A stretch of DNA of 42,451 bases. Source: a bacterium. Its GTDB lineage: Bacteria; Caldisericota; Caldisericia; Cryosericales; Cryosericaceae. The stretch covers positions 1 to 42,451 of the forward strand of contig JAJFTL010000048.1 of NCBI GenBank assembly GCA_021373025.1, given 5' to 3'. Position numbers and translations under genes: made by a program. The notes beneath the pieces are model-generated. The model saw only the letters and a list, made by a program, of their open reading frames with translations, was not told the DNA's origin and ran no database searches. Below, piece by piece: positions 1,231 to 26,145 of this stretch (the first letter of the stretch is position 1; each line of letters opens with the position of its first letter).

Positions 1231-3321
1231 TTATGCCTTGCTGGACGAACCTTCGAACTTGGCAACAATCTGTTCTTGAACTTCTTCTGAAACCTTTTGA
1301 TAGTGCGAGAATTCCATGGAAAACGACCCACGGCCCTGTGTCAGGGAACGTAGAATCGTTGTGTAACCAAACATCGCGGCTAAGGGAGCAGACGCCTCCA
1401 CAACCTGCAGGTGACCACGATCCTGAATCTGCTGGATAGTGCCTCTTCTCGCTGTGATACTGCCGATGACATCTCCAATGTTCTCCTTCGGGACAACAAT
1501 CTCCAGTTTCATGATGGGTTCCAGGAGAAACGGGGATGCTTTTGCGCAACCTTCCCGCAATGCCTTTGACGCAGCGATCTTAAACGCCATCTCTGATGAG
1601 TCAACGGGGTGATACGACCCATCCGTCAATGCTACCGTTATATCCACAAGCGGAAATCCAAGAATGGGACCAGAGGTGGAGGCCTCCCGCACTCCAGCTT
1701 CAATAGCCGAAATGAATTGCTTTGGCACCGAACCGCCTACGGTCTTGTTGACAAACACAATGCCACTGCCGCGCTCCCCAGGGGCAATTCTCAGGACAAC
1801 ATCGCCATACTGGCCATGCCCTCCTGTCTGTTTGATGTATTTGCCCTGCTGCACAATCTCGCGGCCAATCGCCTCACGGTAGGCAACCTGAGGCTCTCCG
1901 ACGACCGCGTTTACGCCATACTCCCGAAGCAGACGATCAATGATGATCTCCAGATGGAGCTCTCCCATCCCTGAAATGATCGTCTCGGAGGTTTCCTCAT
2001 CTGTCTTGATCCGGAATGTAGGGTCCTCGATTGCGAACTTCGCAAGTGAAGCAGCTAGTTTCTGCTGATCCACCTTCGTCTTCGGCTCAACGGCCACGGA
2101 AACCACGGGTTCGGGGAAGTGCATCGTTTCCAGCTGAATCAGTCTCCCCTCATCACAAAGCGTTGTACCCGTAATAACATCCCTCGAGCCGACAATGGCA
2201 CCAAGATCTCCCGCTCCCAGCTCCTCGATGTCCTCGCGCTTGTTCGCATGCATGCGAAGGAGCCTGCTCACACGCTGCTTGTCGCCCGTGTTTGCATTCA
2301 CAACGTATGAACTGCTCTTCATGACACCCGAGTACACGCGTATGTAGGAGAGGATACCAACATAGGGATCCGACACGATTTTGAAGACCAAAGCAACTAA
2401 CGGGCCATTCACATCGCTGGTGACTTCAACCTTTTCATCAGTTCCTGGACTCCTGCCAATAGCAGGCTTCACATCCAGCGGTGATGGAAGATAGTCCACA
2501 ATTCCGTCCAGTAGGGGTTGGATGCCCTTGTTTCGAAACGACGATCCTATAAACACTGGAACCACAAGATTCGCTATTGTCGCACGGCGAAGAGCGGGCT
2601 TGACGTGACTCCATTCCATTGTCCCGGTAGCTACGTATTCCTCAAGAGCTTCGTCATCCACCTCAGCTACCGCCTCGATAAGGCGCTCACGGGCATCGGC
2701 AACCTGAGCTGCCTCCTGCTCGTCGAGCTGAAGAGTCTCGAAGGTCTCACCAGTGGAATCCGAGAACAGATACTTCTTGGATTCCATAACATCGAGAACA
2801 CCCATGAAGCTATCTTCCTTTCCCACAGGCAATTGAACAATCGCCGGTCGAGCACCAAGCTTCTCTCGAATTGCTTCAATGGTCTTCTCGAAGTCTGCTC
2901 CCACCCGATCGAACTTGTTGATATAGACGATGCGCGGTACATGATACTTATCAGCCTGACGCCATACGGTCTCTGACTGAGCTTGTACTCCTTCGACCGC
3001 GGAAAGAATTATCACCCCTCCGTCAAGCACTCTGAGAGCACGTTCTACCTCTGCAGTGAAGTCCACGTGACCGGGCGTATCAATGATGTTAATCTTGAAC
3101 CCTTTCCATGAGGCAGTAACGACGGCAGACTGAATTGTAATACCACGTTCCCGCTCCTGCGGGAGGAAATCCGTAGTCGTATTGCCATCATCGACATTGC
3201 CAAGTTTATACGTAGACCCGGTATAGTAGAGAATCCGTTCCGAAGTCGTTGTCTTGCCGGCGTCAATGTGCGCAATAATGCCAATATTCCGTATGTCGTT
3301 CAAATCGTTCTGATTAAGCAT
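1231..3321 (-). CDS. fusA: Elongation factor G (str-operon copy)
   Basis: This five-domain GTPase drives translocation and, with RRF, ribosome recycling. The product is 696 residues. Visible motifs are AHIDAGKTT (residues 17-25), RGITI in switch I, DTPGHVDF (81-88) and NKFD (135-138). The domain IV loop contains [14 protein letters not shown], and the C-terminus is of the [14 protein letters not shown] type. The str-operon position between rpsG (21 nt upstream) and tuf (17 nt downstream) supports its being the main EF-G. One oddity: the segment after the P-loop reads [18 protein letters not shown], where canonical EF-G1 has an MDW-type sequence. This resembles the mitochondrial EF-G2/spdEFG lineages more than E. 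coli EF-G. A divergent EF-G paralogue lies between rpoB and rpoC. Confidence 0.95.
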
Positions 3322-8278: not shown

Positions 8279-10366
8279 CTACTCTTCTTCCTCAGCGACC
8301 GCATTAGCCTTCGCATCGGCAATGATCTTCTCGGCAATCCGCTCAGGTACTTCTTCATAATGGTCGACCTTCATGGAGTATACACCAGTTCCCTGCGTGA
8401 TTGACCCTAGGTCAATCCCATAATTCAGCATCTCCGACAGGGGGACAAATGCCTTGATGGTCTGCTTTCCCTGAGTGTTTTCCATGCCCGAAATCTTGCC
8501 ACGCTTGCTGGTAAGATCCCCCATGACATCGCCCATATATTTCTCGTCGACAGTGACTTCAAGTGCAACGATTGGTTCGAGAAGAATGGGGTTGCACTGC
8601 TCAAATGCCTTCTTGAAGGCAAGCGATCCTGCCAATTTGAACGCCATTTCTGACGAGTCAACCGGATGGTACGACCCATCTACGACCGCGACCTTGATGT
8701 CTACAGCGGGATAGCCTGCCAGTTGGCCCTTGGACATCGTCTCCAGCATGCCCTTCTCAATAGCCGGAATGAACTGCTTCGGGATCGCTCCTCCAAAGAC
8801 TTTGTTCTCAAACACCCATCCTCCACCCCGTTCATTCGGTTCCATTTCGATCCAGCAATCGCCATACTGCCCATGCCCACCGGTCTGTTTCTTGTGCTTT
8901 CCTTCGACACGGGCGTGCCCCTTAATCGTCTCGCGATATGGAACCCTAGGCACTTCCAGGTCGATGTTCACACCAAACTTCTTTTGAAGGCGCTCAACAA
9001 TTACCTGAAGATGTGCCTCGCCGAGACCCCTCATGATGGTTTCATGAGTTTCCGCGTTCTTCTCGATGACTATAGCAGGCTCCTCTTCCTTAAGGCGGCT
9101 CAATGTAGAACTCAGTTTGTCGTCATCTGCTCTCGACTTTGGCTTCAAAGACCGCATCAGGAGCGGCTGCGAAAAAACGATCGGGGCAAGCTCAATGGGG
9201 TCGTCTTTGCTGGTAATTGTATCATTCGTGGTAGTCGCGACCAGCTTCGAAATGACCACTATATCGCCGGCGATACCCTCATCCAATGCTTCCTGCTTCT
9301 TGCCGATCATGTGGAACAGGCCGCCGACTTTCTCAGAAACATCCTTTGTCCCATTATAGATTTCGTGAGCGATCCTTCCACTATATATGCGTACAAACGA
9401 CAATTTACCCACAAATGGATCCGAAGTTGTCTTAAACACAAAGGCTGCTGGGCGCGCTGATGGATCCGCACGAAGCTCGACGACATCGTCCGTGCCTTTC
9501 CGCTTTGCTTGCACCCTGATTTCCGAGGGACTTGGAGCATACGAGGCAAGAAACTCCATGAGATAGTCACAGCCGATTCCCTTCAGGGCGGAAATGCCAA
9601 CAACTGGAAACACCTGACGGTTCTTGAATGCCTTTGCAAACACCACCGTAAGTTCATCCTGACTCAAGGCTTCACCACCGAGGTATTTCTCCATCATCGC
9701 ATCGTCCGATTCCGCGACTGCTTCCGTCAAGGCGAGACGTGCTGCCTCGTAGTCTGACCGGACATTGTCGGGAATAGCATCCGAAATGACTGCCTCGTCC
9801 TTCCCAGCAGGATATGAATAAACCTTGCCCGTCACAACGTCGACAAAGGCCGAAAAACCTGGTCCAGAAGCGATCGGGATCGTCAGGGTCGCAACCTTAT
9901 GGCCGAACGTTTTCTGTAACTCAGCAACCCGACTGTCAAAATCCACATTTTCCAAATCTACCTTGTTCACCACAAAAGCAACGGGAATCGCCTGCGCTTC
10001 GCAAAGGTTCCAGAAACGCGGTGTCTGGACTTCGACACCCGCGCCTGCGTTGATTGCAAGCAATGCCGTATCGGCGACTCGAACTGCTTCCTGTGCTTCT
10101 GTCATGAAATCGGCATAGCCCGGGGTATCGAGCAGATTTAGTCGAACCCCCTTATAGTCAAACTCGCAAAGGCCAATGCTTGTGCTGATATGGCGCCTCA
10201 CTTCTTCATCCAGGTAGTCGGAGACTGTTGTTCCGTCCTCGACACGGCCAACTCTCTGGCTTGCCCCCGCACGAAACAGCAGGCGTTCTGTGATCATCGT
10301 TTTTCCAGAGCCGCCTTGTCCAACGAGCACGAAGTTTCTGATATTACTCGGGCTGAATCTGCTCAC
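8279..10366 (-). CDS. EF-G-like GTPase (EF-G2 type) located between rpoB and rpoC
   Basis: This is a full-length EF-G paralogue of 695 residues with an acidic C-terminal tail (AVAEEEE). The P-loop is GQGGSGKT (16-23), where true EF-G has AHxDAGKT. Switch I reads RRHIST, with Ser at the usual Thr position. G3 is DTPGYADF, so the catalytic-type His is Tyr84. G4 is NKVD. These changes match the EF-G2/EF-G-like family known from Thermus and actinobacteria, whose cellular role is not settled. The domain IV region retains [17 protein letters not shown]. The start is GTG (10364-10366) behind GGGGAGG. It is 22 nt after rpoB and 19 nt before rpoC, so it is co-transcribed with them. I infer a housekeeping role in translation or ribosome handling tied to polymerase levels. 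Confidence 0.93.
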   Translation of the reverse strand: MSRFSPSNIRNFVLVGQGGSGKTMITERLLFRAGASQRVGRVEDGTTVSDYLDEEVRRHISTSIGLCEFDYKGVRLNLLDTPGYADFMTEAQEAVRVADTALLAINAGAGVEVQTPRFWNLCEAQAIPVAFVVNKVDLENVDFDSRVAELQKTFGHKVATLTIPIASGPGFSAFVDVVTGKVYSYPAGKDEAVISDAIPDNVRSDYEAARLALTEAVAESDDAMMEKYLGGEALSQDELTVVFAKAFKNRQVFPVVGISALKGIGCDYLMEFLASYAPSPSEIRVQAKRKGTDDVVELRADPSARPAAFVFKTTSDPFVGKLSFVRIYSGRIAHEIYNGTKDVSEKVGGLFHMIGKKQEALDEGIAGDIVVISKLVATTTNDTITSKDDPIELAPIVFSQPLLMRSLKPKSRADDDKLSSTLSRLKEEEPAIVIEKNAETHETIMRGLGEAHLQVIVERLQKKFGVNIDLEVPRVPYRETIKGHARVEGKHKKQTGGHGQYGDCWIEMEPNERGGGWVFENKVFGGAIPKQFIPAIEKGMLETMSKGQLAGYPAVDIKVAVVDGSYHPVDSSEMAFKLAGSLAFKKAFEQCNPILLEPIVALEVTVDEKYMGDVMGDLTSKRGKISGMENTQGKQTIKAFVPLSEMLNYGIDLGSITQGTGVYSMKVDHYEEVPERIAEKIIADAKANAVAEEEE

Positions 10367-16352: not shown

Positions 16353-16913
16353 TTAATGACCCGTCAACCCCTCAAACACGGCGTACCACAGCAACCCGAT
16401 AAGCGTCTTTGCATCGTTTATATGTCCGACACGGCACTGCTCGATCGCCTCCGCGATGGGCATCAGAATCGGGTGGATAAACTCGTCAGTATCCATGTCT
16501 GTTGGACCCGGCTGAAGACCTTTCGCAACAAAGAGGGCCAGGCGTTCGTCAACAAAACCAGGGCTAGGCCAGAATTCAGCACATTTTTCCCATGAACTCG
16601 CAACATACCCGGTTTCCTCGCGGAGTTCGCGCTTGGCCGCAGTCAAAAAGTGCTCCCGCACGTTGCGGCGCCCGGCTGGGATCTCCAGCATGACCTTCTC
16701 GGGTGCAGGTCGATATTGGCGAACGAGCACAACCTGATTGTTGGTCGTTACCGCAACGACACATACGGCGCCGCCCGCATACGTCACGACGTCCCGATGA
16801 ACGAAGCGGTCGTCCGGTAACCGGACGACCTTGTCCAGAACTTCTATGGATTTCCCGAGATATGCCCGTCGGCATGACACGACACTCTCGAACATCCGTT
16901 CGTGTGTTCTCAA
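16353..16913 (-). CDS. Nudix hydrolase, ADP-ribose pyrophosphatase type
   Basis: The 186-residue product carries a complete Nudix box GX5EX7REUXEEXGU: G81, E87, then RELREETGY from about residue 95. The N-terminal region with VVAVTTNNQVVLVRQYR and the box following EIPAGR are typical of NudF/ADP-ribose pyrophosphatases, which hydrolyse ADP-ribose and related nucleotide sugars. The TTG start (16911-16913) overlaps the stop of the ATPase D gene as TTGA, implying coupled translation. An in-frame ATG at 16893-16895 is the alternative. The substrate is inferred from the family only. Confidence 0.87.
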   Translation of the reverse strand: MRTHERMFESVVSCRRAYLGKSIEVLDKVVRLPDDRFVHRDVVTYAGGAVCVVAVTTNNQVVLVRQYRPAPEKVMLEIPAGRRNVREHFLTAAKRELREETGYVASSWEKCAEFWPSPGFVDERLALFVAKGLQPGPTDMDTDEFIHPILMPIAEAIEQCRVGHINDAKTLIGLLWYAVFEGLTGH

Positions 16914-17530
16914 TGAGATCGAATCATCTCCTTGATTTTCAACAGTCTCGTCGTCGTGGCTCGTTCGTTCTCATCCAACTTCGATCTGATGAACCGGATT
17001 GTCTCTTCAAGATTGGGAATCATGACATATTCCAAGGCGTTTACCCTGCGTCTCGTCCGTTCAATCTCATCTGCCATGAGACGGATACTCGTCTCAATCT
17101 CGGCCAGCTTCATAATAGAAGGCATGATAGCGTACACCTTCAGAAGTGACGCTTCTACACCTGCGCCTTCTAACCCGGAAAATGACGGAGACTCAAAGTC
17201 GACCATGGTGAAACTCAGCACGGGCAAGCCCACATTCATAACGGTCCTGGTGCTGGCCTCGATGTCGAGCTTGGTCGATACCGTCCTCGAGAGCAAGTCC
17301 ACGACAGCAGCAGGATACGTGGCGGTCTGCCCCCTGAACGAGGCAAGTGCCTGTGGCAGGTCATGGTCAACCCGGGCTCGATATTCGCCATACTCATTGG
17401 CCAGCTTGATGAACGTCTTCATAAGGCCCTCGAGCTTGTCTTTGAGAAGCTTATGGCCACGCTGCGCGAGTACGAAGCGCTTCTGCAGTCGCAGAAGCTC
17501 CATTCTCGTTGGGTTGATCTTGAGGATCAT
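16910..17530 (-). CDS. atpD: V-type ATPase subunit D (central stalk)
   Basis: Subunit D forms the rotating central shaft inside the A3B3 ring. The 206-residue protein begins MILKINPTRMELLRLQKRFVL, the standard PTRM-type start, and is mainly alpha-helical. It has long coiled-coil-forming N- and C-terminal segments (about 5-70 and 130-205), and TRRRVNALEYVMIPNLEETI is a family hallmark near residue 160-180. It follows the B subunit gene by 8 nt and precedes the Nudix gene with a TTGA overlap. The order B-D matches the Enterococcus ntp operon. Confidence 0.94.
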   Translation of the reverse strand: MILKINPTRMELLRLQKRFVLAQRGHKLLKDKLEGLMKTFIKLANEYGEYRARVDHDLPQALASFRGQTATYPAAVVDLLSRTVSTKLDIEASTRTVMNVGLPVLSFTMVDFESPSFSGLEGAGVEASLLKVYAIMPSIMKLAEIETSIRLMADEIERTRRRVNALEYVMIPNLEETIRFIRSKLDENERATTTRLLKIKEMIRSH

Positions 17531-17538
17531 CGTCCAGT

Positions 17539-18915
17539 CTATGCCGCAGGCTTCGGCATGTACTTCTCAATCATGGCAGGCGACACCCTCTTCAGCTCCT
17601 GCAATGGCAACATTGCAAGAAGCTCCCATCCGACGGACAACGTCTGTTCTATCGACCGATCCTCGTCTCGCCCTTGCTGAACAAAACGTCGCTCAAATTC
17701 GTCGGAAAACTTCACGAACGTTCGATCTGTCTCTGTCAGTGCGGACTCGCCGAGGACGATCGCAAGTTCCTTCGCGTCGCGTCCACGAGCATAGGCAGCG
17801 AACAACTCATTCAGAAGACCGGCATGATCCTCACGTGTCTTGCCCTTGCCGATACCCTTGTCTTTCAGCCGCGATAGCGAAGGTAAAACATCGATGGGAG
17901 GATAGATGCCTGCCTGGTGCAGAGACCTGCTGAGAAAGATCTGCCCCTCTGTGATATAGCCGGTAAGATCCGGAATTGGATGTGTCTTGTCATCTTCGGG
18001 CATGGTGAGGATTGGTATTTGAGTGATAGATCCCTTCTTGTCCTTGATGCGGCCAGCACGCTCGTAGATTGTCGCCAGATCAGTATAGAGATATCCGGGA
18101 TAGCCACGCCTGCCAGGAACCTCCTTCCTAGCAGCAGAGACTTCACGCAGGGCCTCGCAATAGTTCGTCATATCGGACAGGATTACCAGCACATGCATGC
18201 CAAGTTCAAAAGCAAGGTATTCGGCAGCGGACAAGGCGAAACGTGGAGTGGCTATGCGCTCGATCACTGGATCATTCGCCAGATTCATGAACAAGACTGC
18301 CTGATTAATGGCACCGCTCTTGCGAAAATCTGATATGAAGTAGTCGGCCTCCTCGAACGTAATGCCCATTGCGCCAAACACCACGGCGAACTCGTCCGTT
18401 CCAGAAAGCACACGGGCCTGCCTGGCAATCTGCGCAGCTATCTCCGCATGTGGCAGGCCACTGCCAGAGAAGATCGGAAGCTTCTGCCCACGTACCAGTG
18501 TATTGAGCCCGTCTATTGCGGAAATGCCTGTCTGGATGAATTCATCAGGATAGTCGCGTGCATAGGGATTCATAGGATTGCCGTTGATATCCACCACGCT
18601 ATCCGGAATGATCGGAGCTATTCCATCAATCGGCGTACCAAGGCCGTCAAATACGCGACCGACGATATCACGCGAGACACCAAACTGTAGCCCATGTCCG
18701 AGGAACCTCGTTGCTGACCGACCACGGTCCATTCCCGATGACCCCTCGAATACCTGCACCAAAACGGTATCTCCAGAAATCTCGAGCACCTGGCCGTGTC
18801 TCAGGCCTGAGACAGTTCGGAATTCGACGAGTTCGCCGTATTTGACGTTTTGGGCCCCATCAAGCAAAACGAGTGGCCCCACAATTTCGCGGACTGTTCG
18901 GTAATCCTTATTCAT
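17539..18915 (-). CDS. atpB: V-type ATPase subunit B (regulatory, non-catalytic)
   Basis: The 458-residue nucleotide-binding-fold subunit alternates with A in the catalytic hexamer. It starts [20 protein letters not shown]. The degenerate P-loop region reads [20 protein letters not shown], lacking the GKT of the catalytic subunit. This is diagnostic of [16 protein letters not shown] and the C-terminal regions are all present, so the protein looks intact. The ATG (18913-18915) overlaps the end of the A gene by 8 nt and has GGGAGGA upstream. Confidence 0.96.
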
Positions 18916-20695
18916 GGTATTCCTCCCGTGCAGTCATATCCATTTCTGACAGCGCCGCAAAACCCTTTTCGATCGATTTCACAAGTGTGTCAAACGCAGC
19001 AAGGTTTCCCTCGGGAATAGCCTTTGAGCGTGCAATTTCTACCCTCACTGGCATTGCAAGAATGGCATTCAGCGGTATTCCATCCGCTGCAGCCTTTCCT
19101 GCCAGATGGCTCCACAGCATAATGCTATCAAGCATGCGCAGCTGCTTGCCGAGGGAGGTATAACTGTCGCCTTCAGTGAACGCTCCCTGCTGGAGGAAGT
19201 CCTCTCGCACAGACTTGGCGGATTCAAGCACCAGACGGTCAGACACGGAGAGAGCATCAACGCCAACGAGGCGGACGAGTTCCTGCAGCTCTGCTTCTTT
19301 TTGAAGGAGGGCTCGAACCTCAACAATGTTCCGGCTCCATTCCTCACCCACTTCTTTGTCGTAAAACTTCTCTAGAAGGTTGCTGTACAAGGAGTACGAC
19401 TGCAGCCAATCAATCGCAGGAAAGTGCCGCGCGTCCGCTAAGCGGGAGTCCAGCGCCCAGAACACTTTTACAACCCTCAACGTAGCCTGCACTACTGGCT
19501 CCGATAAGTCCCCGCCTGGAGGCGACACAGCGCCAATGACACTCAGGCTGCCTTCTCTGGGGTGACTGCCAAGGCTCATGGACCTTCCGGCACGTTCATA
19601 AAATGCTGCTACCCTTGATGCCAGGTAGGCCGGGTAGCCCTCCTCGCCCGGCATCTCTTCGAGTCGCCCGGAAATCTCGCGCATCGCTTCTGCCCAGCGA
19701 GACGTGGAATCCGCCATGAGCGCCACGCTGTAGCCCATGTCACGAAAATACTCAGCAATGGTGATACCCGTAAAAACAGAGGCCTCACGAGCTGCAACAG
19801 GCATGTTGGAGGTATTGGCAATGAGAACGGTGCGATTCATGAGAACTTCGCCGGTCTTCGGGTCCTTCAGCTGGGGAAATTCCTGGAGGACATCGGTCAT
19901 CTCGTTCCCACGCTCACCGCAGCCAACGTACACCACAATGTCCGCATCCGCCCACTTTGCCAGCTGATGCTGAATAACCGTCTTCCCACTGCCGAACGGA
20001 CCGGGGACACAAGCCGTTCCTCCTTTTGCAACAGGAAACATACTGTCGATGACACGCTGACCAGTCACAAGCGGAGCATTAGGAGCCAGACGCTGTGTAT
20101 ACGGCCTGCCATTGCGAACCGGCCACTTCTGAACCATGGTCATCGGTCGCTCTTCACCGGACTCCAACCGAATCACGGCAACAGGCTCCTCAACTGTAAG
20201 ATCATTTTCGGCGATAGACACGATGGTTCCTCCAAGGCCTCTGGGCACCATAATGTAATGAAGAACCGCCGTGGTCTCCCGAACGGAACCGATTATATCT
20301 GCCTCAACCACCACATCGCCGGCCTTTGCGCTGGGAACAAAGTGCCACTTCCTCTCTCGTGGAAGAGCCGGAAGAGCCACGCCACGCGGAATGAAGTCAC
20401 CATATTGCGCACGGATAGCATCCAGGGGACGTTGAATTCCATCGTAGATCGAGGTGATGAGGCCAGGCCCCAGCTCGACCGTAAGCTGGCTTCCAGTCTG
20501 GATGACAGGCTCGCCTGGCCCGACGCCGCTTGTCTCTTCATAGACTTGGACACTTGCCATGTCTCCCCGAAGCTCAATGATCTCGCCGAACAATTCAGCG
20601 CTGCCAACTCGCACCAATTCATACATCTGGGGATTTGTCAGTCCTTTGGCAACAACAAGTGGTCCAGCAACTTTGACAATCTCACCGTGTGTCAT
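18908..20695 (-). CDS. atpA: V-type ATPase subunit A (catalytic)
   Basis: The 595-residue catalytic subunit hydrolyses or makes ATP. The P-loop GPFGSGKTV is at about 232-240. The family's extra non-homologous insert lies upstream of it, and the C-terminus is helical. I set the start at the ATG 20693-20695 ([15 protein letters not shown]) because it has GGAGG eight bases upstream and matches the family N-terminus. A longer in-frame start nine codons upstream lies within the F gene and is unlikely. It overlaps both the F gene (upstream, about 14 nt) and the B gene (downstream, 8 nt). Confidence 0.95.
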
Positions 20696-21026
20696 GGCTC
20701 TTTTCCTCCGTAATTTTCCCAACTAGGTCGATGCCTACAGCATTCTCAATAAGACGTCGCACAGCAACCGAGGCGGTATCAGACGCCACTGAAGTCACCG
20801 GAACCACAAGCACGACGGGGATAACTTGTCTCCGAGCCGCCGACGACTCAGTCCACACGTCGGCCACGTCAGAAGTCAAGAGAACCAGGCCATATTCTCC
20901 CGAACGACTAATGGAGAGGACAGCCTGAGACGCTTCGTTCGCATCTTCTACTACCCGGCCGACAAAGCCCAGCGCCTCGAATGCCCCAACACAATCGCGC
21001 GTTGTCACAACTGCAGCCTTGCTCAC
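20682..21026 (-). CDS. atpF: V-type ATPase subunit F
   Basis: This is a small Rossmann-like central-stalk subunit (NtpG equivalent), 114 residues. It pairs with D and modulates ATPase activity. The N-terminus MSKAAVVTTRDCVGAFEALGF and an internal YGLVLLTSDVAD strand match the family fold. The start is GTG (21024-21026) behind GGGAGGAG, overlapping the C-subunit stop as GTGA. Its place between C and A is the standard ntp order. Confidence 0.9.
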   Translation of the reverse strand: MSKAAVVTTRDCVGAFEALGFVGRVVEDANEASQAVLSISRSGEYGLVLLTSDVADVWTESSAARRQVIPVVLVVPVTSVASDTASVAVRRLIENAVGIDLVGKITEEKSHDTR

Positions 21027-22060
21027 AATGCTCCTCCCGGGTTACCCTCCCCCAGCTCCATCGCTGCAGCCGCTTTGAACAAGCGGCGCAGGGCCCACAC
21101 TTCCCGTCTGAAATCCATGAGGTAGGCAAACACAACGGCAACCCCGTAAGGTTCAGCTGAGGCTTCTTCGGGGCGCCCAACAAGCCAGGACCCAAGAGCA
21201 TCCTCAAGCATGTCTATGCGCTCATCGGCAGTGTAGTGCCGCCCCACGGGGAGCACATAAGCTGAAGCCTCTGGAACAAGGTCCGCAGGTTGGAGTGTAT
21301 CCCAGGATATGTCCTGAATATGCTCTGAAATCGACACGAGAGTAACCTGTATGTCGGGCTCGACGAATGGCAGCAATCTCTGGAGCGGAGCTCCGATTCC
21401 GGACCCTCCCCGCAGCTTCATCTTCAGTGCATGCCCACTCAGCATCAATCTTCGAAGCCTTTCTACATATCCAATCACCGCAGGATTCCCATATGCCCTC
21501 GCCAGACCGCCAAGCGTGTCCTGAAATGAGAAGTCGAATACCGTCTGGGCATCTGACGTGGATGCCCCAGCCTCTGCTGCCTTCAATCCATGAGACAAGG
21601 CCACGCCGAAAACCGACTCTGCAAGCACTTCAGCAGAGTTCCCTGCCTTTTGAATACGTTTACAATACACTGCATACTCGCCACTTGTAGCACCCGTCAG
21701 GGATCCGTCAGTTCCGCCAAGCAGAGCCTGTGCCAAACCGGCCTTCGCATACTCCTTCTCATCGAGCGCCGCAAGCAGAAATGGAAGAAAGCCCTCCGGC
21801 AAGTCACGAGCCGCTCGAGCGAGAAACGCAAGCCATGTGCTCTCAACCCTCGCAAGGATGTCGCCTGGCGACATGTCGCTTGTAACAGGAGCATAGGCGC
21901 TACGGTTGAGCGCAGGCACCAGTGAACCGGTTTCTCCCGTCTCCGAGGCGTGTCGAAGTTCCTGTACAGGCAACAGCAGACTTCGCCTCGCCGAGAAGGC
22001 TCCAGAAGCATATGCATACTCACGCGCATCTGCCTGATGTGGCTCAATTGAAGCAATCAT
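21023..22060 (-). CDS. atpC: V-type ATPase subunit C (d-type, rotor cap)
   Basis: The 345-residue alpha-helical funnel-shaped subunit links the central stalk to the membrane rotor ring. The N-terminal motif REYAYASGAFSARRSLLL and the C-terminal PYGVAVVFAYLMDFRREVWALRRL (split here from a longer block) correspond to the family's conserved ends. The sequence is more diverged than A or B, as usual for C. The ATG overlaps the E-gene stop (ATGA) and the stop overlaps the F-gene GTG, so translation is coupled on both sides. Confidence 0.87.
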   Translation of the reverse strand: MIASIEPHQADAREYAYASGAFSARRSLLLPVQELRHASETGETGSLVPALNRSAYAPVTSDMSPGDILARVESTWLAFLARAARDLPEGFLPFLLAALDEKEYAKAGLAQALLGGTDGSLTGATSGEYAVYCKRIQKAGNSAEVLAESVFGVALSHGLKAAEAGASTSDAQTVFDFSFQDTLGGLARAYGNPAVIGYVERLRRLMLSGHALKMKLRGGSGIGAPLQRLLPFVEPDIQVTLVSISEHIQDISWDTLQPADLVPEASAYVLPVGRHYTADERIDMLEDALGSWLVGRPEEASAEPYGVAVVFAYLMDFRREVWALRRLFKAAAAMELGEGNPGGAL

Positions 22061-22635
22061 CTCTCGTCGCCAAACAGCATCCGGGCAGCTTCTACCACAG
22101 TACTCTCACGAAGTGCTTCAATGGCTGCCGACAGAGTCAGGTCAAGGTCACCCTCAGCAAAGTGAGCGATCAAGCCAGCACTGCTATCGGGAAGCGTTGT
22201 ATCAATATGAACACCTGCCAATTCTGGACGCCTGTTCAGCAACTCCCTGACCAAGCTCTCATCTCGAGCAGTGCAGTCAACAGAGATGGGAACACTCTGC
22301 CCAAGCTGCTCCACTGCATGTGCAAGATACGAACGATAGAGAGCGTCGTCACCCCGTACCTTTTGGTCTATCTCGTGGTACAAGTCGCCAAGTAATTCCT
22401 GCTTGCGCTTGAGGAGAGCATTTCTTAGCTCAATTTTCAACGCAGCAGTCCTGTTCACAATATCACGGTCTCGGACAGCGCGGTGCTCCGCTGCCCGTTT
22501 CTCCGCCTGTTCCTCCAGGTGCCGTTTCTGGTCCTCAACAACTTGCGATGCCTTTGCGGTAGCGGCCTCAACGAGCGCATTCGCCTCTGCAGCTGCTTCC
22601 CGGAGAACCGCAGCTTTAAGTTCGTCGGTTCCCAT
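22057..22635 (-). CDS. atpE: V-type ATPase subunit E (peripheral stalk)
   Basis: This is a 192-residue stator-stalk subunit. Residues about 1-90 are a long charged, Ala/Glu/Lys-rich helix suited to a coiled coil with subunit G/H. The C-terminal half is a compact domain that binds the A/B head (LTLSAAIEALRESTVVEAARMLF at the end, a family feature). It lies 12 nt after the K gene and overlaps C as ATGA. Confidence 0.9.
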   Translation of the reverse strand: MGTDELKAAVLREAAAEANALVEAATAKASQVVEDQKRHLEEQAEKRAAEHRAVRDRDIVNRTAALKIELRNALLKRKQELLGDLYHEIDQKVRGDDALYRSYLAHAVEQLGQSVPISVDCTARDESLVRELLNRRPELAGVHIDTTLPDSSAGLIAHFAEGDLDLTLSAAIEALRESTVVEAARMLFGDER

Positions 22636-22647
22636 GTATCAAGCGCC

Positions 22648-23229
22648 CTAGAATGCTGCCTGAGAGATCCAGAGAATAAGCAGGATGCCCGAAACCAGGG
22701 CGATGACAGCATAGGTCTCAACGAGCGCAGGGATGAGGATAGCCTGCCCGGAACTGCTTGGCTGGCGTGCCGTAAGGCTCTCTGCAGCAGCCGCCGACTG
22801 TCCCTGCAAAACAGCAGACAACCACTCTACCAAGCCGACGCCGACGCCGACTGCCATGAATGCAAGGCCCTTCGCGTTCGAGATCGCCGCCCCTTTGTTG
22901 AGAACACCCGACAGAACAATCATCATAATCCCGCAAACGAAGCTGTAGAATCCTTGTGTGCCTGGAAGAGCCATCATCACAAACATCTTACCGAAAAGTT
23001 CTGGCTTCTCAGATAGAACTCCGGCCGCCTGAGATCCACTGATGCGAATGCCTATGGCGGACCCCAGACCTCCGAGAGTGATAACAAAGACCGCTCCCAT
23101 GAATATCCACAGTGAACTCAACGATGCCATCGGCGTGTTAGACAGCTTAAAGGCAAACGCCGCCCCAACAGCACTGAGCATCGTCACAAGAGCTCCGACC
23201 AGAATTGACCACAACGCTTCGATACCCAT
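22648..23229 (-). CDS. atpK: V-type ATPase proteolipid subunit K (c-ring)
   Basis: This is the rotor-ring proteolipid that carries ions across the membrane, 193 residues. It contains two c-type hairpins. The first has LPGTQGFY, with Gly90 at the ion-binding Glu position. The second has VETYAV with Glu171. L88, T91, Q92, Q142 and E171 align with the five Na+ ligands L61, T64, Q65, Q110 and E139 of E. hirae NtpK. An extra hydrophobic segment (about residues 5-28) precedes the four expected helices, so five membrane spans are predicted. The start at ATG 23227-23229 has GGAGGT at a good distance; upstream in-frame codons lie in the I gene. Confidence 0.93.
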   Translation of the reverse strand: MGIEALWSILVGALVTMLSAVGAAFAFKLSNTPMASLSSLWIFMGAVFVITLGGLGSAIGIRISGSQAAGVLSEKPELFGKMFVMMALPGTQGFYSFVCGIMMIVLSGVLNKGAAISNAKGLAFMAVGVGVGLVEWLSAVLQGQSAAAAESLTARQPSSSGQAILIPALVETYAVIALVSGILLILWISQAAF

Positions 23230-23239
23230 GATGTACCTC

Positions 23240-25294
23240 CTATTTTCCCTGAACAGTCGACTTGTCGACAATCTTGACAACTTCCGACGAGAACCCAAAA
23301 CGATGGAACCGGGGCGCTCCACCCTCGTAGAACCGCCCAAAGAACTCGAGCAGGATGAGACGGGCAGAATGGATGAACGCACCCATGGTACCCATGAAAT
23401 AGTTCAGTAGATGCCCAAACAGCAGTATCACGGCACCTATAATGAAACCAAGAACCGGAACCTTTACAAGAGACCCCATCATGTTGAAGGCCGAGCCCAG
23501 CATCGAGGTAGTCAATCCCAGCGCCAGCAGACGCGAGTACGAAAGGACATCACCTAGAAATGAACCAACACCATAAGAACTTTGAATGCCATACAGGTTC
23601 ACGATCGCGGTAACTACCTTGGCTCCGCCCTTGCTCTGCCGTGCACCGCCAAGCAGAAGGAGCACAAGGCCAATGACTAATGCGATCAGATATCCGGTTC
23701 TGAAGGAGCTGCCCCACTTGGTTCCGATGAACAGCAATGCAGAGATTGCAGGCAGAAATAACAACCAGCCAACGCAATCATAAAGAATAGAAGCATAGTC
23801 ATGTCGCCTAGCAGCCTTGTAGATTGCAAGACAGACCCCGTAGAGTTGGTTGATGGCCCCCATGATCCACACGATTATCAGGAACTGGAATGCGGCTTGC
23901 AGAGGATTGATGATTGTGAGCGAGGATACGAACCGCGCGATCGGATTTCCTGCTCCCAAGTATGTCGCCGAAAGGAGATCTCCGCCCCAACTCCCGGTAA
24001 GCACACCGACAACCATGGCTGCTGCGCCGCCGTACACAAACACCATCATGAAGTTGCGGACTCCCATCGACCGTCGATACTTGCGCATGAAGTAGAAACA
24101 GATTCCTATCTGGATAGCGCCATACAGGACGTCTCCCAGACACAGTCCGAAGAAAAGAAGAAACGGAATCGCCAGATAAGGAGTCGGATCGAACGAGGAA
24201 TACACCGGAAATCCGAACATGTTGATCAGGATCTCGAGAGGTTTCAACCACTTGTTGTTGGTAATGGAAACGGGAGTGGTATCGCCCGCGGTAGAATCTC
24301 CCGTCATGCAAACGATTCCGCCAAGACTGGAACAAAGCATCTCCAGGGACTTGATATCAGTTTCTCGCACATATCCAGTGACGACGCTGCAGCGCTCTGT
24401 CCGCGTGAGTTCATTGGAGGCTTCCAGGCGCTGCCGCTCATTCAACAGATACTCGCGATAAACGACGATCTCCTGCCTGCGAGCGAGGTAGGACGCGACT
24501 TCAAGTTGAAGTGCCTCCACCCTGTCGTGCACGACTCGCTGCTCCTCAGTCAGGTGACCAATCAACGCTGCCACAGTGCCACTGACATTCGAGAGATCCT
24601 GTTCGACGAATCCCTCCGATACAAGTGCAGCCCGAACATCGTCAAGTTCGACATGCCGACATGCAACAACTGCCTTGACAGCAGTCTTCGTCTCAGACAG
24701 CGTCTCAACAGCAATGGGACTTCCGTGGTCCGAAAAAAGCCTCGTAACCCGTTCCAAGCCTTGCGAGGAGATGGAGCCTGTAATGAGCGAGATCCGCTTC
24801 CACCGACCAACTTCGCCGAAGTCCACTGGCAACGATGACCACGGTGTCAGCAACTCAAGATCTTGTCCGAGTTGACTCAGGCGACGGTGCTGTTCGGCAA
24901 GTTGCTCTTTCAGGGAAGACACGCTGCGCATCATTTCTGTGTAGCTGCCGTTGGAACCCCTCGATGCCGTGGTTTCCATATCAGAAGCACTGACATACAC
25001 TTCATCAGGGAAGAAACTCTGGACGAGCCCCTTGGCAATGGGATCGACTTCAGCGAAAAACGAGAGTGTCGCATTTGCAAGTTCCAGCTCTTCTCCTATG
25101 CGGTGCAGCGACTCCTCTCTCTGGATTCTGCAGACGTCCGGCGATGCAAGAGGGGCTTCTTCTCCTGTTGCGTCTTCAGACGCGACATAAGAAGTCAGAT
25201 GAACTATCCCGGCGTTGAACAGACACGTCAATACCACATCCTCGCTGCGATGTGGAAAAGCAAGAGCAAACTCCTGTACCTTGTCGATTGCCAT
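23240..25294 (-). CDS. atpI: V-type ATPase subunit I (a-type, stator and ion channel)
   Basis: The 684-residue membrane stator has a cytosolic N-terminal half (about 1-375) with coiled-coil arms and a C-terminal half with about seven to eight membrane segments. LGDVLSYSRLLALGL contains the Arg that faces the proteolipid Glu during ion transfer. The end FIHSARLILLEFFGRFYEGG is characteristic of the family. The stop is 10 nt before the K start, and the gene starts 1 nt after the G/H gene. Confidence 0.95.
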   Translation of the reverse strand: MAIDKVQEFALAFPHRSEDVVLTCLFNAGIVHLTSYVASEDATGEEAPLASPDVCRIQREESLHRIGEELELANATLSFFAEVDPIAKGLVQSFFPDEVYVSASDMETTASRGSNGSYTEMMRSVSSLKEQLAEQHRRLSQLGQDLELLTPWSSLPVDFGEVGRWKRISLITGSISSQGLERVTRLFSDHGSPIAVETLSETKTAVKAVVACRHVELDDVRAALVSEGFVEQDLSNVSGTVAALIGHLTEEQRVVHDRVEALQLEVASYLARRQEIVVYREYLLNERQRLEASNELTRTERCSVVTGYVRETDIKSLEMLCSSLGGIVCMTGDSTAGDTTPVSITNNKWLKPLEILINMFGFPVYSSFDPTPYLAIPFLLFFGLCLGDVLYGAIQIGICFYFMRKYRRSMGVRNFMMVFVYGGAAAMVVGVLTGSWGGDLLSATYLGAGNPIARFVSSLTIINPLQAAFQFLIIVWIMGAINQLYGVCLAIYKAARRHDYASILYDCVGWLLFLPAISALLFIGTKWGSSFRTGYLIALVIGLVLLLLGGARQSKGGAKVVTAIVNLYGIQSSYGVGSFLGDVLSYSRLLALGLTTSMLGSAFNMMGSLVKVPVLGFIIGAVILLFGHLLNYFMGTMGAFIHSARLILLEFFGRFYEGGAPRFHRFGFSSEVVKIVDKSTVQGK

Positions 25295-25295
25295 A

Positions 25296-25610
25296 CTAAG
25301 GAGCGATGAGTTTGGCCAGCAGTAGTTTCACAGCAGTGCTTCGGTGATCCCGTGCAAGACGATCCAGGTCTGAAAGCTGTTCCTGGAGATTCCTGTGGAA
25401 CTGTTCTTCGACACGCTTTACCTGCGCATCTGCTTCCTGATCAATTGCATGAATGCGTTGTTCTAACGACGCTTCGGCAGAGGCACGATCTCTAATGAGT
25501 GTAGATTCAGCATTGCGCTGAATATCTTGAACCTTTTCTTTCGCTGCAGCAACTAGCGCGTCTGCTTCAACCTCGGCACGCTGCACGTTCTCGATAAACT
25601 CTTCGATCAT
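25296..25610 (-). CDS. atpH: V-type ATPase subunit G/H (peripheral-stalk coiled coil)
   Basis: This short (104-residue) protein is almost wholly helical, charged and Ala-rich, from MIEEFIENVQRAEVEADALV to the C-terminal HRSTAVKLLLAKLIAP. It is the first gene of the ATPase string, equivalent in position to ntpF, and should pair with subunit E as a stator stalk. I chose the ATG at 25608-25610 with GGAGGGG upstream; a longer in-frame frame would run into the tRNA. The assignment rests on composition and gene order more than on a motif. Confidence 0.85.
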   Translation of the reverse strand: MIEEFIENVQRAEVEADALVAAAKEKVQDIQRNAESTLIRDRASAEASLEQRIHAIDQEADAQVKRVEEQFHRNLQEQLSDLDRLARDHRSTAVKLLLAKLIAP

Positions 25611-25803: not shown

Positions 25804-26145
25804 CTATTTGTTCTCAACCAGCTTCTTCAGCCTTCCGCTAGCCCGAACGGTAACAACGCGCTTCCCCGGTACATTCACCGCTTCACGTGTGCTGGGGTTT
25901 ACCCAACGTACCTTTCTGGTGGACTCACAAAAAGCCCTAAAACCGGTCAGGGTAACCTTACGACCTGCCCGCAATTCTTTGCTGGAAGTACTCGAAGCCT
26001 GATATAAAACGCTCTCACCAACTACCTTCGAACATTCAGTCTTCGTCCCCACTACCGAAACCAGACTCGACTGCGTCCCATGAGCACCGCAGAACCCGGC
26101 AGACGGCTCACGCCAGCATGGCGGGTCGAGCAACCAACAAACCAC
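25804..26145 (-). CDS. HU/IHF-family DNA-binding protein-like, start unresolved
   Basis: From about residue 24 (nt about 26079) to the end, the translation aligns without gaps to bacterial HU: LVSVVGTKTECSK, LRAGRKVTLTGF, then NPST and a final SGRLKKLV. It is diverged: the usual GRNPxTG turn reads WVNPSTRE and the FGTF turn is FRAF. HU proteins bend and compact DNA as dimers. No start codon with a ribosome site exists at the expected position. The only in-frame candidates are GTG (26143-26145) and TTG (26131-26133), both without a Shine-Dalgarno, while an ATG at 26079-26081 is one frame off. It is either a real gene with an odd start, a sequence error, or an early pseudogene. Confidence 0.55.
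   Translation of the reverse strand: MVCWLLDPPCWREPSAGFCGAHGTQSSLVSVVGTKTECSKVVGESVLYQASSTSSKELRAGRKVTLTGFRAFCESTRKVRWVNPSTREAVNVPGKRVVTVRASGRLKKLVENK

Follow-up and report, generated by a model that had tools for sequence, protein, structure and literature searches.

A predicted five-helix, Na+-type rotor proteolipid in the V/A-type ATPase of Candidatus Cryosericum, with an extra N-terminal helix that probably derives from TM1

In the window, by which we mean the whole stretch of 42,451 nucleotides analysed here, we found a complete V/A-type ATPase operon on the minus strand, with the gene order G/H-like, I, K, E, C, F, A, B, D. The source of this DNA is Candidatus Cryosericum (Caldisericota), and the nearest public match, at 91% identity, is Ca. 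C. septentrionale. The operon opens with a peripheral-stalk, G/H-like coiled-coil subunit (25296..25610, start ATG at 25610; a longer ORF reaching up to 25667 was rejected, as it overlaps a tRNA), followed by ntpI/atpI, the stator a subunit (23240..25294), by ntpK/atpK, the proteolipid (22648..23229), and by atpE (22057..22635). Subunit I, like E, was assigned by family profiles; it keeps the essential Arg588, in the motif SYSRLLALG, and among solved structures it comes nearest to E. hirae NtpI, with 143 bits against 54 bits for the Thermus H+ enzyme. Next comes atpC (21023..22060), a d/AC39-like subunit expected at the ring's cytoplasmic side and recognised by its operon position and by a Pfam match at E 0.03 only; it is very diverged, and its 345 aa exceed the 313 and 272 aa of relatives. 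The remaining genes are atpF (20682..21026, by Pfam) and, by family profiles, the catalytic atpA (18908..20722), atpB (17539..18915) and atpD (16910..17530), all on the same strand. The order of the operon is the same in relatives, and K is located together with A, B, D, E, F, C and I. Elsewhere in the window, an Rfam search returned two tRNAs and no regulatory RNAs, and inspection of translations identified two EF-G-like GTPases of 695 and 696 aa (8279-10366 and 1231-3321, both minus) within one ribosomal/rpo cluster. An HU/IHF-like DNA-binding protein (25804-26145, minus) has GGG where a GTG start would be expected (GTG is present in a relative, L088) and scores 45 bits in Pfam against 90 bits in that relative, so this gene is perhaps a decaying copy, or one with an alternative start.

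The first-pass annotation had called a V-ATPase proteolipid at 22648-23229, and the coordinates are correct; it did not give the strand, the organism or the additional N-terminal helix described below. The gene runs on the minus strand from an ATG at 23229 to a TAG at 22650-22648 and encodes 193 aa, and a plus-strand frame across the same interval was rejected. PF00137 (ATP-synt_C) matches the protein in two stretches with 88.8 bits (cut-off 24), and the NCBIfam equivalog NF005124 scores 117.8 bits, slightly under its cut-off of 127. The best match in the PDB is E. hirae NtpK (2bl2), at E 3.4e-19 in HMMER phmmer. Both ATP-synt_C hairpins are present, and the ion-binding glutamate, E171 in the motif VETYA, lies in TM4. 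Five helices are predicted, rather than the four usual in NtpK-like K subunits, with the four core helices intact. Cryosericum K is thus a variant of the V/A-type ATPase subunit K, the NtpK-like double-hairpin proteolipid.

For the ion site, we read L88, P89, G90, T91, Q92, Y95, Q142, E171, T172 and Y173 from the translation, and found the complete Na+ ligand set (Leu carbonyl, Thr, Gln, Gln, Glu). The predicted ligands are L88, T91 and Q92 in TM2, Q142 in TM3 and E171 in TM4. The phmmer alignment pairs LPGTQG with LPGTQG, the QG of Q142 with the QG of NtpK Q110, and VETYA with VETYA, which bears out the earlier proposal that these five residues correspond to the NtpK Na+ ligands, including the placement of Q142 at the site, on which that proposal had been staked. 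The accompanying claim that Gly stands in place of Glu in the first hairpin also holds, since G90 lies opposite E171 at an ungapped offset of 81, as G63 does opposite E139 in NtpK, and a single ion site per subunit (G90 in hairpin 1, E171 in hairpin 2) is therefore supported. The match is not generic to proteolipids, since the H+-type c subunits of citrus and yeast, used as a negative control, align without the Thr and without both Gln (citrus c reads 'magvlgiy' and 'aigivgda' at these places). The five ligands and the supporting Tyr are kept in all 17 K sequences from other families of the class; the ligand set, which these relatives keep, and the hairpin-1 Gly, which NtpK shares, are ordinary features. 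A published criterion predicts Na+ transport for any c/K subunit that has the full set of Na+ ligands (PMC2359735), and by it, given the 17 sequences, Na+ coupling is predicted for the class as a whole. At a separate position in TM3, two helical turns from Q142, we observed an invariant glutamate, E135 (window 22825-22827), in 9/9 aligned Cryosericum K sequences; class-wide this position is Glu, Gln or Leu, and NtpK, with Gly there, has no counterpart to such a buried carboxylate.

What sets the protein apart is its N-terminus, which is about 35 residues longer than that of NtpK. Codons 1-33 (23131..23229, minus) encode an extra hydrophobic segment, with a best 19-residue Kyte-Doolittle mean of 2.25, that is less hydrophobic in the most divergent member of the genus. 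Directly 5' of the ATG of this extended form lies the ribosome-binding site AGGAGGTACATC (23230..23241, minus), which presents AGGAGG in the source gene. A mis-called start was considered and rejected: GGAGG precedes the same ATG in 12/12 distinct genus sequences, all of them 193 aa long and free of indels in the extension, and across these sequences dN/dS is 0.24 for codons 2-33 (0.10 for the remaining codons), which places codons 2-33 under purifying selection. Across 54 genomes of the phylum, every full-length Cryosericum K is matched from residue 1 by a profile HMM of the genus (a contig end truncates one gene), whereas in other families of the class the match begins at residue 22 or later. 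The extension is absent in 17/17 class relatives, and their ribosome-binding sites indicate that these N-termini are truly short. An AlphaFold2 model built on nine sequences predicts helices at 2-30, 34-74, 76-109, 118-153 and 162-190, with a low mean pLDDT of 62, and a second model, with another species as query, again predicts helix 2-30 (pLDDT 49). In Foldseek the best match of the first model is 2bl2_A, with a TM-score of 0.84 on the target; mammalian and yeast c'' are also aligned over about 190-210 columns, at an rmsd of 6-7 A and from a low-pLDDT model. The extra helix is a genuine feature of K and, within the class sampled, is specific to the genus.

Where this helix came from is suggested by the protein itself. 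When we slid the extra segment without gaps along the rest of K, it found one clear best place, residues 39-72 in TM1, at an offset of 34, so that residues 5-38 (ALWSILVGALVTMLSAVGAAFAFKLSNTPMASL) are set against 39-72 (SLWIFMGAVFVITLGGLGSAIGIRISGSQAAGV). Residues 5-32 pair best, without gaps, with residues 39-66, and of 2000 column shuffles under each of two nulls, the second of which preserves the hydrophobic pattern, 1 was as good. Furthermore, TM1 was compared from 18 sequences that have no extension, and in 16 of them, NtpK being one, the same register scores best; the score of 38.1 against its own TM1 compares with a maximum of 28.0 among eight other membrane proteins of the genome. The program hhalign also finds this register, at E 0.0027, although at 11% its probability is low, the profiles being short and shallow. 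We consider it fairly probable, from this internal likeness, that the extra helix arose by tandem duplication of TM1. The likeness could have come about by convergence of two glycine-rich inner helices, and it is true that both are Gly/Ala-rich and hydrophobic, that the repeat statistics are moderate, as the hhalign probability indicates, and that unrelated membrane proteins reach the 28.0 given above; but an ungapped register held over some 28-34 residues, taking in LW, G12/G46, G22/G56, K28/R62 and S30/S64, and recurring against relatives that lack the extra helix, makes convergence unlikely, although by no means negligible.

The setting in which such a ring would work can be read from the rest of the genome, an assembly of 1.6 Mb that is 97.9% complete. 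A family search of it returned a single PF00137 gene, this K, with neither an F-type c subunit nor a second K. A mixed ring built with a second K paralogue was considered and set aside, as none was found in the source genome (G000); two K copies occur in another genome, G007, which carries 10% contamination. The genome further encodes a full rnfCDGEAB cluster (Rnf C-D-G-E-A-B), two OadB-type Na+-translocating decarboxylase beta subunits, one of them beside mmdA (methylmalonyl-CoA decarboxylase alpha) and a biotin carrier, and two membrane pyrophosphatases, which we typed by the residue rules of PMC10897367. The first, with GNTTAAMGKG (Ala12.46, Gly12.49) and Glu6.53, falls in the K+-dependent, Na+ or Na+/H+ type, and the second, with GNTMKATTKA (Lys12.46, Thr12.49), in the K+-independent type. 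PF00361 (Proton_antipo_M, of Mrp antiporters and of NADH dehydrogenase, complex I) is absent in all 15 Cryosericum genomes searched. The pump set leans towards Na+ and is served by one rotary machine. With this set, the full ligand complement, and a Na+ enzyme as the best PDB relative of both K and I, the first-pass prediction of a Na+-coupled rotary ATPase stands, on the evidence of sequence, as likely. Two side observations concern this inventory: RnfG (L061:6582-7772, G000:C26) is, at 396 aa, roughly double the normal length, contains two FMN-binding stretches and is duplicated or fused; and the K+-independent pyrophosphatase (L065:1924-3894, minus, G000:C57) combines GNTMKATTKA with Gln at 6.53 and Asp at 6.57, and this combination is unlike the subclasses of PMC10897367.

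The direction in which the enzyme runs is a separate matter. It had been argued that a low ion-to-ATP ratio would favour pumping over synthesis, and this part we could not support. ATP synthases with 8-subunit rings exist. Rotor rings have between 8 and 17 subunits (PMC5376962), and the E. hirae V-ATPase, with 10 sites, itself makes ATP from sodium motive force at a measured ratio of about 3.2-3.3 Na+/ATP (PMC12018189), its direction in vivo being set, according to the same authors, by the small available force and by uninhibited hydrolysis rather than by the ratio alone. A preference for pumping is also weakened by this being the only c/K gene found in a 97.9% complete genome that encodes Rnf and Na+-decarboxylases. 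Because Rnf, the Na+-decarboxylases and a Na+-type pyrophosphatase are present, ATP synthesis from a Na+ gradient would be at least as likely as pumping, and a reversible Na+-coupled synthase would fit at least as well as a pump. That the enzyme instead serves solely as an ATP-driven Na+ pump, in the manner of E. hirae, making a Na+ gradient for uptake in a fermenter, draws on the nearest characterised relatives of K and I being subunits of the E. hirae Na+ pump; we hold it doubtful, since it would be the sole rotary ATPase found in an organism where Rnf, two Na+-decarboxylases and two pyrophosphatases can build an ion gradient, and since the E. hirae enzyme synthesises ATP as well.

Two further readings bear on the N-terminus and on the ion. 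The N-terminal segment might be a cleavable signal peptide or leader that aids an N-out topology, leaving a mature K of the four-helix NtpK type. Another class of the phylum (f7) has a single-hairpin K with textbook signal peptides of the form MKK...AXA, and in most Cryosericum sequences Ala occupies a possible -1 site before F27-K28. We regard this as rather improbable: the sequences checked have no Lys or Arg ahead of residue 28 and share an invariant Glu4, quite unlike the n-region of a signal peptide, L008 carries Val at the putative -1, an exact-register likeness to TM1 would not be expected of a signal peptide, and the other families of the class do without the segment. A ring coupled to H+, or to H+ and Na+ mixed at low Na+, with the ligands as ancestral remnants, is very improbable, for although some H+ enzymes also carry a partial Na+ ligand set (PMC2359735) and Cryosericum has a K+-independent, H+-type pyrophosphatase too, drift would not preserve all five ligands and the supporting Tyr invariant across the class.

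We hypothesise that K is the sole proteolipid of the rotor ring in a Cryosericum genome where no second rotary ATPase was found, that each subunit would bind one Na+ between TM2, TM3 and TM4 through the NtpK ligand set, and that the ring would turn against subunit I, so coupling Na+ flow to ATP hydrolysis or synthesis in a reversible enzyme for which synthesis from a Na+ gradient may be at least as likely as pumping. Ahead of TM1 would come the extra helix, which most likely arose by tandem copying of that inner helix and could take the position of c'' TM1 in the lumen. The bovine V-ATPase has c'' TM1 in the middle of its c-ring, and TMs 2-5 in the ring wall (PMC7414150); by analogy with it, and because TM1 is the inner helix, the extra helix most likely lies in the ring lumen, inverted relative to its parent TM1. 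The positive-inside rule speaks against this arrangement: K28, the first basic residue of K, would lie at the outer end, provided that TM1 is oriented as usual. With one K gene only, a homomeric ring would have the extra helix in all of its subunits. Taken as a whole, a single Na+ K ring with a TM1-derived extra helix in a reversible enzyme seems to us probable. The stronger picture, of a homomeric Na+ ring in three concentric helix layers, with an inverted lumen copy of TM1 in all subunits as a bacterial counterpart of c'' confined to one lineage, we offer tentatively, with confidence somewhat short of even.

While the Na+ site is one more phylum-level example of a known pattern, the new point is the genus-specific five-helix K in a predicted homomeric ring, which probably came about through copying of TM1. 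Among openly accessible papers, our literature search found no prokaryotic five-helix K subunit, which is weak evidence of absence. To our knowledge, rotor subunits are otherwise built of whole two-helix hairpins, and if our reading is right, an odd helix gained by copying TM1 alone would be a new route of ring growth. Such a simple homomeric system would moreover help to probe whether the lumen helix of c'' acts as a lipid plug, in assembly or in coupling to subunit d, and it would be relevant to energy conservation in Cryosericum, a permafrost-thaw lineage.

Among known systems, the Na+ A1AO ATP synthase of Eubacterium callanderi, as cited in PMC9503626, resembles the predicted Cryosericum enzyme in being bacterial and Na+-coupled with a V-type c subunit; it is reported as an ATP synthase from experiments, whereas the Cryosericum enzyme is predicted from sequence. 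Within Caldisericota, K subunits of other families (e.g. G028, L028) share the operon order and the Na+ ligands at 44-53% identity and lack the extra helix. In the phylum's other class, the single-hairpin c (L081-L085) likewise has a hydrophobic N-terminal stretch ahead of its first core helix, but that stretch, borne on a two-helix c, carries Lys-Lys and an AXA site and is clearly a signal peptide. The Cryosericum segment has no basic residue ahead of position 28. E. hirae NtpK, the top PDB match by both sequence and fold, agrees with Cryosericum K in the five Na+ ligands, the Tyr, the hairpin-1 Gly and the four-helix core, at 29% identity in the structural alignment, and differs from it in having 156 aa and no N-terminal helix. 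Eukaryotic c'' (Vma16, the 21 kDa proteolipid) shares the extra N-terminal helix ahead of the double hairpin, and we know of no proposal that its helix is a copy of TM1; c'', a type with its ion Glu in the first hairpin, contributes one copy to a mixed H+ ring, whereas Cryosericum K, departing from the c''-type traits, is encoded by one gene and combines Gly in the first hairpin and Glu in the second with a Na+-type site.
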